DNA of 11,618 bases from Pseudomonadota bacterium. GTDB taxonomy: Bacteria; Pseudomonadota; Gammaproteobacteria; Pseudomonadales; Pseudohongiellaceae. Position numbers and translations under genes: made by a program. The notes below the pieces were generated by a model. The model was not told where the DNA came from. It saw nothing but the letters and a program-made list of their open reading frames with translations, and did no database searches. Shown in pieces: positions 4,723 to 10,071 of this stretch. Position 1 is the first letter of the stretch. Each line of letters starts with the position of its first letter. The DNA lies in assembly GCA_022563075.1 (NCBI GenBank), contig JADFOC010000031.1, forward strand, positions 1 to 11,618. The letters run 5' to 3'.

Positions 4723-5574
4723 ATGGATTCTTTGAGTCAGACTCAATTCAGTGTCGAATTTTTTCCGCCGCGTAACGCGACGGGAGAAACCAAGTTGGAT
4801 GCTGTTCATGCAAAGTTAGCGGCGCTTAAACCCGATTTTTTCTCGGTAACCTATGGCGCTGGCGGGTCTACAAAAGCAGGCACCAAGCAGATTGTTTTGC
4901 GTTATCAGGCGCTAGGATCAACGCTGGCACCACATCTCTCCTTTGGCGGTGTCGACGAAGATGAGTTGCGCAGCCTGCTGGAAACTTATAAGCAGGCTGG
5001 CATCAATCGGCTGGTAGCTTTGCGGGGTGACATTCCTTCCGGCATCGGCGCGGTAATTCAGCACCGTTATGCCAACAAACTGGTGGAGTTTATACGCCAG
5101 GAAACAGGCGATCATTTTCACATTGATGTGGCGTGTTATCCAGAGTCTCATCCCGAATCTCCCAATTTTGACTCTGACGTGAACTATTTCAAACAGAAAA
5201 TCGATGCCGGCGCGAATTCTGCAATCACGCAGTATTTTTACAATGCCGATGCCTACTTTCGGTTTGTGGAATATTGCGACCGCTCCGGAATTTCAGTACC
5301 CATCGTTCCTGGCATCATGCCTATTACAAACTATGCGAATCTTGCTCGCTTCAGCGAAAAATGTGGAGCCGAGATTCCACAATGGCTAGGGAAGCGTCTT
5401 CAAGGTTACGGCGATGACATTGACGGTCTTCGAAGTTTTGGTGTGGACGTCGTTTCTGCCCTGTGTGAACGCCTGTTGGAAGGTGGGGCACCGGGGCTTC
5501 ACTTCTATTCGATGAACCTGGCCAACAGTGTCAGCCAGATTTGGCACAATCTGGCTCTTTCAGATCGAAGCTAA
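4723..5574 (+). CDS. metF: 5,10-methylenetetrahydrofolate reductase
   Basis: MetF is a FAD enzyme that reduces 5,10-methylene-THF to 5-methyl-THF, the methyl donor for methionine synthase. The protein has 283 residues, a typical length for the single-domain TIM-barrel bacterial enzyme. Landmarks: VEFFPPR (11-17, catalytic Glu12), SVTYGAGGST (41-50), ALRGD (99-103, flavin-facing Asp103), CYPESHPES (138-146), ITQYFY (168-173, Gln170) and PGIMPI (196-201). It follows ahcY by 37 nt and completes the cycle: AhcY releases homocysteine, MetF supplies the methyl group, and MetK reuses the methionine. No methionine synthase (metE or metH) is in the window. The start has an unusually close Shine-Dalgarno sequence (see 4716-4720). 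Confidence 0.97.
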   Translation: MDSLSQTQFSVEFFPPRNATGETKLDAVHAKLAALKPDFFSVTYGAGGSTKAGTKQIVLRYQALGSTLAPHLSFGGVDEDELRSLLETYKQAGINRLVALRGDIPSGIGAVIQHRYANKLVEFIRQETGDHFHIDVACYPESHPESPNFDSDVNYFKQKIDAGANSAITQYFYNADAYFRFVEYCDRSGISVPIVPGIMPITNYANLARFSEKCGAEIPQWLGKRLQGYGDDIDGLRSFGVDVVSALCERLLEGGAPGLHFYSMNLANSVSQIWHNLALSDRS

Positions 5575-5589
5575 CGGAATTGGTGAAAG

Positions 5590-6315
5590 ATGCGTATCTC
5601 TCGCATTTACGAACCTGCTCAGCTTGCAGGCAATAAAACGCTGCTGCTTCCCGGTGAAGTCTCGCATTATCTAACTCATGTTCTACGTCTGCGCGTCGGT
5701 CACAGACTGCATCTTTTCAACGCAAGAGATGGAGAGTTTGTCGGGGAAATAAGCAACATCAATAAAAATGACGTGGCGGTGGACCTGTTGACCCGGGTAA
5801 GAAAAAGTGAAATCCCCTCCCTGAAAATTCACCTGGCATTGGGGCTGTCACGGGGAGACAAAATGGATTATGCGATTCAGAAATCATCGGAGTTGGGCGT
5901 CGCTCAAATAACTCCCGTCTATTCACAGCACTCGGAAGTCAAACTCAAAGCCAATCGTGTTGAGAACAAGCTGAGACACTGGCGCAAGATTGCAATTAGT
6001 GCTTGCGAACAATGTGGACGCTTGGATATTCCTGAGATCTCTGCACCGTGTTCAATACCCCAATGGCTTGAGATGGGCTCGGCGGATCTCGATCTCATGC
6101 TGCAGCCCACCGGGACCGACAAATTTCCCGATGCTATCAACACCAAATCAATTAACTTGTTAGTGGGCCCTGAAGGGGGGTTCGCCGATCAAGAAGTGAG
6201 CTGGGCGCGAGACCATGGCTTTGTCATCGTCGCCATCGGATCTCGAGTGTTGAGAACCGAAACCGCCCCAGTTGCGGCGTTGGCGATATTGCAACATCTG
6301 TATGGCGACATGTGA
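5590..6315 (+). CDS. rsmE: 16S rRNA (uracil-1498-N3)-methyltransferase
   Basis: RsmE is a SPOUT-family, SAM-dependent enzyme that methylates U1498 of 16S rRNA in the 30S subunit. The 241 residues match the family length. An N-terminal PUA-like part (about 1-70; LPGEVSHYLTHVLRLRVG at 20-37) precedes the trefoil-knot methyltransferase domain: LGLSRGDKMDYAIQKSSELGV (84-104), WRKIAISACEQCGR (131-144), the SAM-binding LLVGPEGGF (190-198) and LRTETAPVAAL (221-231). It starts 15 nt after metF and is almost certainly translated from the same mRNA. GGTGA (5582-5586) gives a close, weak Shine-Dalgarno sequence. In the operon it is a consumer of SAM rather than a cycle enzyme. No terminator hairpin is visible after it. 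Confidence 0.96.
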   Translation: MRISRIYEPAQLAGNKTLLLPGEVSHYLTHVLRLRVGHRLHLFNARDGEFVGEISNINKNDVAVDLLTRVRKSEIPSLKIHLALGLSRGDKMDYAIQKSSELGVAQITPVYSQHSEVKLKANRVENKLRHWRKIAISACEQCGRLDIPEISAPCSIPQWLEMGSADLDLMLQPTGTDKFPDAINTKSINLLVGPEGGFADQEVSWARDHGFVIVAIGSRVLRTETAPVAALAILQHLYGDM

Positions 6316-6374
6316 CCCTTGGCTGACAGTTTTAACGAATCCCCCTATCTCGCCACTATCATGCATTAGGCGGA

Positions 6375-7706
6375 CTAGAGGCGAAACCCCAATGCGCCGA
6401 TGCCTATTCTCTTGCCACAAAATCTGAAGGTAAACTCGCTCGAATCGATGTTGCAACAGTCAACACTGGAACTACTGGTTATGGTGTGCCGTCGACGTGC
6501 CTGATGTCGATTGGGCAGGTCTAACACTCTGGGATTGTTAAGCCGCATCTTTTCAGCGTTGGTAATGTAAGCCAGCTTGGGGAAAAGTTTTTCCGTTGAG
6601 TTTTGTTCCAGCACCAGCGCGAGTTCACCCGACGCCAATTCAACCACTGTGCCTGCGGGATAGGTTCCCATGGTATGAATAAATTCGACTACCAGCTGCT
6701 CAGGGAATTTCAATTCTCGTTGTTTATAGAGTTTGGCCATGGCCTTGGCGGGAGAGACGCTTTGCGTATCGGAATCTTTTCGCAGCAATCGCTCGAAGCT
6801 GTAAGCCAGATTGGCAATCCTGGCCAGCCCCGGTATTTGCCCGCCTTTCAATCCCCGTGGAAATCCTAAGCCATCGTGTCGCTCATGATGACATCGCAAG
6901 ATGCCGACGATGCGATCATCCACTGCTTGATGCGCAGACAATAATTTCAGTCCTAGTTCGACATGTTTTTTGTAGGCGAGAAATTCTTTCTTCCTGAAAC
7001 TACCTCGCTTGTTTACTAATCTCAGTGGCAGCAGGTGCATGCCGATGTCGGCGAGCAAAGTCCCCAGAAACAGGACCTTCATTTCATTTCGGTTGATGCC
7101 GATTTGTCGAGCAAGTATGGTCGCCCAGATTGCTGCTCTCACGCAGTAACTGACTTGATGGGATTTCGATGGGTCGGTATTTAGCAGCCAAATTAAAGAT
7201 TGTGGATTGGCAATAATGATGTCGACCAATCCATCGATTGGCTTATCGAGTTCAGCGAACTCAAGTTTCCCATTCGCTCTGACCGCTTGCGTCGTTGCCA
7301 AGAAATCCGCTTGCAGTTTGGTGTATAGCCTGAATGCCTTATCTATTTGTTGCTTGATAGAATGGGTAACCGGGTAGGTGTCGCGTTTGACGTTGAGCGA
7401 GGTGGACACCCTGGCAGACTTTCGTGCGCGGCTTAGCATTGTCAGTTGGCGTGCTTTTTTCTGCCGTGGGGGCACGCCGCGATTGGTGTCTATATAAACA
7501 AACTTACAAAATTTCTGCAGCGTCCGAATATCTTCGTTTTTCCTCAGGTGGAAACCATTCAGAGGAAACGGCGCATCCGACCTGCGGCTGTCCAGTTCCG
7601 AAACAAACATGCCCACAAGCAAGTCTGAGCAATCAAGCTTGAGTACATAATCGGAGGAGAATAGTGATGCAGAAGGCCGCATTCGAGTAAGCTTATCCGA
7701 CTTCAT
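6375..7706 (-). CDS. DUF3391 + degenerate HD-GYP domain protein
   Basis: The 443-residue protein starts with a DUF3391-like region (about 20-80: LLVGMFVSELD at 29-39 and KFVYIDTNRG at 68-77). An HD-GYP domain follows (about 165-395). HD-GYP proteins hydrolyse cyclic di-GMP at a binuclear or trinuclear metal site. Retained landmarks are His183, His248, HHER (273-276), DG (278-279), GFP (281-283, for GYP) and the C-terminal YPAGTVVELASGELALVLEQN (349-369). Expected ligands are lost: HDIGK reads ADIGM (219-223), losing the His and the Lys, and the later Asp in the usual VAD position reads LAY (300-302). It may be a c-di-GMP sensor or inactive protein; this is inference. The last ~45 residues have no recognisable fold. 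The start is uncertain: ATG 7706 has no Shine-Dalgarno sequence, and ATG 7682, preceded by GGATAAG, is an alternative. It is convergent with rsmE and lies downstream of the sutA-like gene. Confidence 0.85.
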   Translation of the reverse strand: MKSDKLTRMRPSASLFSSDYVLKLDCSDLLVGMFVSELDSRRSDAPFPLNGFHLRKNEDIRTLQKFCKFVYIDTNRGVPPRQKKARQLTMLSRARKSARVSTSLNVKRDTYPVTHSIKQQIDKAFRLYTKLQADFLATTQAVRANGKLEFAELDKPIDGLVDIIIANPQSLIWLLNTDPSKSHQVSYCVRAAIWATILARQIGINRNEMKVLFLGTLLADIGMHLLPLRLVNKRGSFRKKEFLAYKKHVELGLKLLSAHQAVDDRIVGILRCHHERHDGLGFPRGLKGGQIPGLARIANLAYSFERLLRKDSDTQSVSPAKAMAKLYKQRELKFPEQLVVEFIHTMGTYPAGTVVELASGELALVLEQNSTEKLFPKLAYITNAEKMRLNNPRVLDLPNRHQARRRHTITSSSSVDCCNIDSSEFTFRFCGKRIGIGALGFRL

Positions 7707-7766
7707 GGTCGCGGCTTGTGAGTGGTTTCACATTTACCGAAGTGTCAGGTTGTAAGTTCGGCTAAA

Positions 7767-7782
7767 TGTTAACTGGTTAACA
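7767..7782. promoter_or_regulatory. 16-bp inverted repeat upstream of the HD-GYP gene
   Basis: TGTTAACTGGTTAACA has two 7-bp arms around a TG centre and contains two GTTAAC palindromes; a third TTAAC copy follows at about 7790. It lies 61 bp before the HD-GYP ATG and 29 bp after the stop of the sutA-like gene. It could be an operator for the HD-GYP gene. It is too AT-rich and lacks a following T-run to be a strong terminator. No factor can be assigned. Confidence 0.35.
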
Positions 7783-7810
7783 CTTTGTTTAACCCGGTTA
7801 TATGGTTTGG

Positions 7811-8052
7811 TTATATCGCGCGACTGCCGTAATTACTCTCCGGCTTTTTCGGTGGATCGGCGGTCACGTCCGCGGCGATTTCACTGATGGTGCCCCCTTA
7901 TTTAGAAATGCTGCAATATCGTCCTCGACTTTACTGCGAAGTCTGCTCCTGGAGGTAATGGTTCTGCTTTCTGCTATTTCTTCTTTACTACCAATATAAT
8001 CGTAATCAATAGTATCGCGCGGCTTACTAGCTGCCTTCGCACTCACTGCCAT
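7811..8052 (-). pseudogene. sutA: SutA-like RNA-polymerase-associated regulator, split by a -1 frameshift
   Basis: The gene starts at ATG 8052 with GGAG at 8060-8063 (7-nt spacer). The first frame reads 62 codons and stops at 7864-7866. Reading one base back at the five-base G run (7893-7897; C on the plus strand) opens a second frame down to TAA 7811-7813, ending in TADPPKKPESNYGSRAI. Joined, the product would be 80 residues with IAAFLNKGGTISEI followed by that tail. This matches my memory of the Pseudomonas SutA C-terminus (FLARGG..., ADPPKKP..YGSR.I). SutA binds RNA polymerase and adjusts transcription in slow-growing cells. The N-terminus here is short and less acidic than in Pseudomonas. 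A TAA just upstream of the G run in the second frame places the shift at or after that run. It may be a true pseudogene, a homopolymer sequencing error or a frameshift-dependent gene. The place next to amtB-glnK also fits the Pseudomonas locus as I remember it. Confidence 0.75.
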
Positions 8053-8227
8053 GATTCAACTCCAAGGGGTTAACTCTTTATTTCAAATTTCAATAATAGA
8101 GTAGTTCAAATCAGCAGAAGTGCTAGCTAAAAAACGCGTATTTTTATTCGAACTAGTTATATAGAAATCAAACTATTTTGAATGAGCTAATTTGAAAGGA
8201 GCGACAGAGATTCTCGGACTGCAATAT

Positions 8228-8317: not shown

Positions 8318-9640
8318 TTACAATACATACCCTCGTTCATCATGCAGGCTAATATCGAGTCCTTCCTGTTCTTCATCCTCATTGACACGTAGACCCATGG
8401 TCATATCGAGGCCTTTAAGTATCAGAAAACTCAACACACCGGTGTAGACTATGGTGAATAAAACACCCTCTGTTTGTATCAGTAGTTGAGCGGCAATGCC
8501 ATCGGCCAGACCGGTGCCGCCAAACATCTCGGCGGTGAAGACACCCGTCAGTATGGCGCCGATAATTCCGCCCACCGCATGGACACCAAACACATCCAGT
8601 GAATCGTCGTAGCCCATGGCTCGTTTCAGCGTGGTGGCGGCATAGAAACAACCAATGCCTGCAGCGGCACCAATTGCTAACGCACCCATAGGACCAACAC
8701 TACCTGACGCCGGGGTAATAGCCACCAGACCCGCTATCGCACCGGAGGCGATGCCTAACACACTGGGCTTGCCATGGATTACCCATTCCGCTGTCATCCA
8801 GCCGATGGCTGCGGTTGCGGTGGCTATTTGCGTCACCAACATGGCCATGCCAGCGCTGCTATTGGCCGCAGCGGCTGACCCGGCATTAAAGCCAAACCAA
8901 CCAACCCACAACAGGGCAGCACCGATAAGGGTATAAGTCAGGTTATGCGGAGGCATCGCTGTCGTTGGGTAGCCTTTACGCTTGCCCAACATTATGCAAG
9001 CCACCAGTCCGGCGATACCCGCATTGATATGAACCACGGTACCACCTGCAAAATCGATGACACCCCAATCCCAAAGTAAGCCGCCGTCGCCTGCCCATAC
9101 CATGTGCACCATAGGGATGTAACACAGAGTTACCCACAGTGCCATGAACACCATCATGGTAGAGAATTTCATGCGCTCGGCAAAAGCGCCGACTATCAAT
9201 GCCGGCGTAATAATAGCGAAGGTCATCTGAAAAGTTGCCCACACAGATTCAGGGATGGTCCCGCTCACCGAATCCACGGTGATGTTTCGCATAAAGACAT
9301 TGTCAAAAGTTCCTACGATGGAATGCAGATTAACTACCCCCGCCTCCATTCCAGTGGTATCGAAGGCCAAGGTGTAGCCATAAACCACCCAGATAATTGT
9401 CATTAATCCGGTAATGGCAAAGCACTGCATCATTACCGACAGTACGTTCTTGCTGCGCACCATCCCCGCATAAAACAGAGAAATGCCCGGTATCGTCATC
9501 AGCAACACCAGCACCGTCGCGGTAATCATCCAGGCGGTATCCCCGGTATCTATCTCCTGAGCGGATGCGATACCAGGCAGTATTAGCAGCAAGGCTGCCA
9601 TCAGGCCGAGTCCCCTTTTGGTTGTCATAAACTTCTTCAT
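8318..9640 (-). CDS. amtB: Ammonium transporter AmtB
   Basis: AmtB is a trimeric inner-membrane channel for ammonium uptake when nitrogen is scarce. The protein has 440 residues: a signal peptide (about 1-28; MKKF, hydrophobic core, IASAQ) and then eleven expected membrane segments. Landmarks: IPGISLFYAGMVRSKN (50-65), WAGDGG (182-187), DFAGGTVVHIN (196-206, with the Asp196 and twin-His His204 positions), GWFGFNAGS (247-255), the second twin-His HAVGGIIG (354-361) and the conserved cytosolic tail. The ATG at 9640 is chosen because GAGGAA (9648-9653) lies 7 nt before it; a longer frame from TTG 9664 would place that sequence inside the gene. It lies 71 nt after glnK, and GlnK is expected to block the channel when ammonium is plentiful. 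A strong terminator follows. Confidence 0.97.
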   Translation of the reverse strand: MKKFMTTKRGLGLMAALLLILPGIASAQEIDTGDTAWMITATVLVLLMTIPGISLFYAGMVRSKNVLSVMMQCFAITGLMTIIWVVYGYTLAFDTTGMEAGVVNLHSIVGTFDNVFMRNITVDSVSGTIPESVWATFQMTFAIITPALIVGAFAERMKFSTMMVFMALWVTLCYIPMVHMVWAGDGGLLWDWGVIDFAGGTVVHINAGIAGLVACIMLGKRKGYPTTAMPPHNLTYTLIGAALLWVGWFGFNAGSAAAANSSAGMAMLVTQIATATAAIGWMTAEWVIHGKPSVLGIASGAIAGLVAITPASGSVGPMGALAIGAAAGIGCFYAATTLKRAMGYDDSLDVFGVHAVGGIIGAILTGVFTAEMFGGTGLADGIAAQLLIQTEGVLFTIVYTGVLSFLILKGLDMTMGLRVNEDEEQEGLDISLHDERGYVL

Positions 9641-9647
9641 ATTTTGT

Positions 9648-9653
9648 TTCCTC
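9648..9653 (-). promoter_or_regulatory. Ribosome binding site that fixes the amtB start
   Basis: GAGGAA on the minus strand has a 7-nt spacer to ATG 9640. This, together with the signal-peptide start MKKF, decides against the upstream TTG at 9664. Confidence 0.8.
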
Positions 9654-9711
9654 AACAATCTCAAATAATCAGTCTTTCAAAGGATTTACTGGTATTTCAG
9701 CCAATAGTGAA

Positions 9712-10071
<360 letters not shown>

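Follow-up and report, generated by a model that had tools for sequence, protein, structure and literature searches.

A SutA-like gene divided between two reading frames at a five-G run in a Pseudohongiellaceae draft genome, probably a recent lesion in a genus that loses this gene repeatedly

SutA helps RNA polymerase to initiate transcription when growth is slow; it binds the beta protrusion of the enzyme and activates sigma-S transcription. It is described in a review as a factor that acts in growth arrest (PMC8632087). The protein of Pseudomonas aeruginosa has an N-terminal region in which 23 of 55 residues are D or E, and substitutions at G79, V81 and I84, among other positions, are reported to impair its binding, while its short C-terminal tail is given a smaller contribution to activation (PMC9300723). 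The window analysed here, a stretch of 11,618 nucleotides, makes up the whole of contig C294 in a draft genome that counts 531 contigs and is 73.84% complete. It carries a SutA-like gene on the minus strand (8052..7811), which lies in two frames with a one-base offset at a run of five G residues (7893-7897).

The upstream frame has 62 codons (7864..8052), starts with ATG at 8052-8050, ends with TGA at 7866-7864, and is preceded by GGAG, a putative ribosome binding site, at 8060-8063, 7 bases before the ATG. It encodes the N-terminal part and positions 1-21 of the 35-position RNA-polymerase-binding domain. The remainder of the domain and a conserved tail are encoded in the other frame (7811..7897), which reads GGTISEIAADVTADPPKKPESNYGSRAI as far as its TAA at 7813-7811. 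A second TAA of this frame (7900-7898) lies directly upstream of the run, as had been noted earlier. No second lesion was found in the gene. The TGA that ends the short frame shares bases with a GTG of the other frame in a GTGA (7864-7867), and re-initiation there is possible in principle; its product would be the tail alone and it was rejected as an explanation. The overlap looks accidental, since its valine codon is part of a conserved VTADPP stretch. Downstream of the gene, an inverted repeat (AAATGTTAAC/GTTAACACTT, 90% complementary) was observed at 7764-7785. A similar stretch, GTGTTA..CAGTTAACAC, follows sutA in genomes G012 and G112 of the same genus, where the repeat finder gave no inverted repeat that reached 8 bases.

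Read across the run, the two frames give an 80-residue protein that matches the Pfam domain SutA-RBD (PF20661) over its whole length (41.6 bits, positions 1-35 of 35, cut-off 29.3). The 62-residue frame alone stays below that cut-off (19.6 bits, positions 1-21). A profile of relatives gave 73.5 bits for the N-terminal half (E = 4.3e-20) and 54 bits for the C-terminal half (E = 5.2e-14) in abutting frames, so the second frame is no chance match. The first row of this profile is the 80-residue reading itself, so that its scores lean slightly towards that reading; the independent Pfam model agrees with it. These data bear out the preliminary description, which had proposed a SutA-like regulator whose two conserved halves join at the G run. 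Against the NCBIfam equivalog of SutA (NF041490), the 80-residue reading scored 51.2 with a cut-off of 145, and all five relatives tested also fell below that value (49.7-58.0; 50.6 for protein P0001 and 49.7 for the copy of G012). The first 31 residues contain six D or E and five K or R, and do not form an acidic N-terminus as in SutA. Because the equivalog cut-off is missed and the acidic N-terminus is missing, "SutA-like" is the right name. The score against a second family, PFL_1563 (NF058628), was 21.3 with a cut-off of 60.

A protein search with the 80-residue reading found 23 proteins, and the two glycines at the junction are present in every one of them. The best match, P0001, is unbroken, has 80 residues and is 98% identical, with two substitutions; it stands for five member sequences and one 1,495-base contig. 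P0016, also among the 23, has a different tail and looks frame-shifted further downstream. An unbroken close relative combined with a single lesion is the mark of a recent pseudogene, and both were found here. The break, if real, must therefore be recent, as had been proposed. The 62-residue frame as query found five proteins in the same collection, all longer than 62 residues and none with the same break, and a first scan with that frame found no relative. The scan of named genomes yielded at least 19 sutA-like loci with 44-61% identity in their best segments; among the matches listed were Kistimonas, Parendozoicomonas, Sansalvadorimonas, Oleispira, Thalassolituus, Teredinibacter and further gammaproteobacteria.

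We consider it probable that the split is genuine and very recent, a frameshift that abolishes the function of a SutA-like gene which this genus loses repeatedly. One base would have been lost from a short G tract, presumably by replication slippage, and translation would leave the conserved frame between the glycines matching G78 and G79 of P. aeruginosa SutA. This correspondence assumes that the numbering of the PDB chain and that of the paper differ by four, as deduced from the residue letters. The short product would keep the helix that lies on the beta protrusion of RNA polymerase and would lose G79, the tail and the short strand that contains V81 and I84. RNA polymerase binding would thus likely be lost although the helix stays.

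The fate of the gene elsewhere in the genus was followed with a profile search over 84 genomes, this one included. Matches were found in 26, of which those in G012, G025, G011, G007 and this genome were strong, and that in G112 reached 56 bits with three internal stops. The other 20 genomes gave weak matches (25.4 bits at most), nearly all to other SutA-RBD proteins. Only one weak match, that of G023, lies inside the syntenic slot anchored by the rsmE-like gene; it is in two frames and contains stops, and we take it as a sutA remnant from its place in the slot and its tail. RsmE was found in 68 of the 84 genomes, and the slot was analysed in 65 of them, the window included (G022, whose contig ends beside rsmE, G055, with a partial hit, and G036 were left out). 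A slot was counted as readable when it reached amt or glnK, which was the case in 61 genomes and not in G021, G052, G059 and G107. In 54 readable slots there was no trace of sutA at the threshold used, three held an unbroken gene, and four held a copy with a lesion: this genome, G011 (tail only), and G112 and G023 (multiply decayed). Counting this genome and the tail-only G011, 58 of the 61 readable slots thus have either no sutA or one with a lesion. In G011 (L047, about 6755-6800) the gene has its own frame change near its end and a replaced tail. As this single change comes after the binding domain, the domain is whole, and the copy may be functional or its frame change may itself be an error.

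On a tree of RsmE and GlnK the presence of sutA is scattered, with seven changes. A losses-only model needs 14 events; collapsing the branches with support below 80, 90 or 95 lowers this to 12, 7 or 4, respectively. The tree was built from two short proteins by a quick method with a midpoint root, and 22 of its 62 inner branches are starred. The genus is probably still losing sutA, and the split gene would be a recent step in this process. Among the papers listed by literature searches on SutA with RNA polymerase and Pseudomonas, and on SutA with pseudogene, none was seen to report a loss of sutA, although this does not prove that there is no such report.

In the window the gene sits between a gene for an HD-GYP-type protein with DUF3391 and HD_5 domains, which is open (6375..7706, minus strand), and the genes for an ammonium transporter, amt (8318..9664, minus strand), and a P-II protein, glnK (9712..10050, minus strand). 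The rsmE-like gene lies at 5590..6315 on the plus strand. The order metK-ahcY-metF-rsmE-HD-GYP-sutA-amt-glnK-ubiK-yifB recurs in four members of the genus, G007, G011, G012 and G025; the names metK, ahcY, metF, rsmE and yifB are those we presume for these genes, and the other names are supported by family matches. Outside the genus 20 sutA loci were compared. Ten, including G069, five Oleispira or Thalassolituus drafts and Teredinibacter, had glnK upstream, nine of these with amt as well; the other ten, Kistimonas and Parendozoicomonas among them, showed no glnK or amt in the DNA examined, some stretches of which were short. From gene order, the linkage of sutA with glnK is widespread and probably old. 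The ten linked loci suggest that the presence of sutA in the slot is ancestral, while the ten without glnK in the DNA examined count against this.

The ammonium transporter encoded at this place (8318-9664 in the window) comes in two types among the 65 loci compared, and the two share about 30% identity. The type in the window is shared with G003, G040, G041, G043, G045, G105 and G116 (80-84% identical) and the other type occurs in 46 of the 65, which looks like replacement at the same site. In G007 (L049, about 7050-8110), where sutA is unbroken, stops and frame changes interrupt the HD-GYP gene, and in G025 (L048, about 5300-6820) this gene has a single open frame that carries an insertion. 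Among the 54 slots without sutA, it was found in 23 and not found in 31.

The preliminary description had offered a fresh pseudogene, a homopolymer sequencing error and frameshifting as options. The first is favoured here in view of the 58 of 61 slots in which sutA is absent or damaged, and the second is its main rival: the gene of the organism may be unbroken, and the draft contig one base off in a homopolymer. We regard such an error as rather unlikely, while recognising what speaks for it and so against a genuine lesion, namely that the offset is a single base inside a G run, that the draft is fragmented and 73.84% complete, that the gene carries no other lesion, and that P0001 shows the gene kept in a population with a near-identical protein. 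That the protein collection gave no copy with the same break also counts against a genuine lesion, and the support from repeated loss is lessened by the small basis of the tree and by the inclusion of the tail-only G011 among the four lesions. The genuine lesion is supported by the repeated loss of sutA across the genus, by its scattered presence on the tree, by P0001, the unbroken counterpart, by the ancestral presence that gene order outside the genus suggests, and by the loss of residues whose substitution is reported to impair binding in P. aeruginosa SutA. It is also supported by the state of the neighbouring genes in the window, which were compared and found free of frame breaks: MetK, AhcY, MetF, RsmE and GlnK align in one frame to all four genus relatives, and the HD-GYP-type protein to those of G012 and G011. 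Damage or loss of the gene elsewhere in the genus likewise argues against an error. A codon-usage scan of 22 stretches of this genome (171,033 bases) gave seven frame-switch candidates, none shown to be one broken gene; the scan is weak, since it recovered 18 of 60 and 22 of 60 planted deletions and did not flag the break already known in the window. When six of the candidate pairs were searched with Pfam, three pairs belonged to different families and two (L174 and L186) matched nothing; the pair in L188 reads as two genes because the same N-terminal motif was matched twice. The translation of the seventh candidate, L173, reads as two neighbouring genes, which we presume from the families they appear to represent. 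A dicodon version of the scan was discarded as too noisy, giving at least 435 candidates at a detection of 43 of 60 planted deletions. In another stretch of this genome (L181, from contig C9; 288-1107 of the stretch) a frame for a CHASE3 sensor continues into one for FG-GAP repeats, and the draft assembly may be chimeric at this join.

The third option, by which programmed or stochastic -1 frameshifting through P-site GGG slippage, or polymerase slippage, would yield both 62- and 80-residue products, found no support. In its favour, the P-site GGG could re-pair with GGG one base back, the upstream TAA confines the shift to the run, and the C-terminal half is conserved. Against it, none of the five relatives that were read at this site (G012, G025, G007, G011 and G069) has a run of five or more G there, and each of them keeps a single frame through this point. 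Their codons at the stretch (CGC GGC GGC, AAG GGC GGC, AAA GGA GGT, CAG GGT GGC and AGG GGC GGT) indicate that the run is not conserved. The sequence lacks a slippery X XXY YYZ heptamer, and the 86 bases of downstream RNA, folded without pseudoknots, are not unusually stable (z = +0.54, with 150 of 200 shuffles folding as well). Programmed frameshifting is poorly supported by these sequences, and we consider slippage of either kind very improbable. That the 62-residue form is a functional shortened regulator we find scarcely credible: by the mapping to P. aeruginosa SutA it keeps the helix and four of six hydrophobic contact positions, but it falls below the SutA-RBD cut-off, lacks positions needed for binding in P. 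aeruginosa, and has no counterpart with the same break in the protein collection.

A recent loss-of-function frameshift, the reading preferred here, would leave the genome with another protein of the same domain. SutA-RBD matches above cut-off were found in 79 of the 84 genomes, and in 52 of the 54 that have no sutA in the slot. Of 30 SutA-RBD loci fetched, 29 carried a tail motif of PFL_1563 type and one, L024, did not, and the copy of this genome (G000:C342, L045:3952-4128) passes the PFL_1563 cut-off (62.2 versus 60). A second binding-domain protein, of the PFL_1563 type where checked, is widely kept. We infer that it may replace SutA. More tentatively, and with more doubt than confidence, the genus could be shedding SutA-like regulators by many independent events, now at different stages (unbroken, one frameshift, multiple stops, deleted), with the kept PFL_1563-type protein taking the place on the beta protrusion. 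A single lesion alone is ordinary, and the surrounding pattern is the more useful. Read in 61 genomes, the slot captures several stages in the loss of a gene that encodes a growth-arrest-type transcription factor. Such a natural series could be used to ask at what point SutA-type factors can be dispensed with, and whether the widely kept PFL_1563-type protein stands in for them.

The binding domain and tail align without gaps to those of P. aeruginosa SutA (structures 7f0r, 7xl3 and 7xl4), whose PDB chain matches the profile of relatives at positions 30-80 with 68 bits, and the proximity of glnK, mostly with amt, is shared with the linked sutA-like genes of other genera. The gene described here differs from P. 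aeruginosa SutA in its score far below the equivalog cut-off, in its non-acidic N-terminal part and in being split. With the PFL_1563 protein of the same genome (NF058628, L045), which matches SutA-RBD with 40.4 bits, the split gene has this domain in common, and it is set apart from that protein by the tail, which in L045 is VQQIPSGVSGQTSTSGPRQI.
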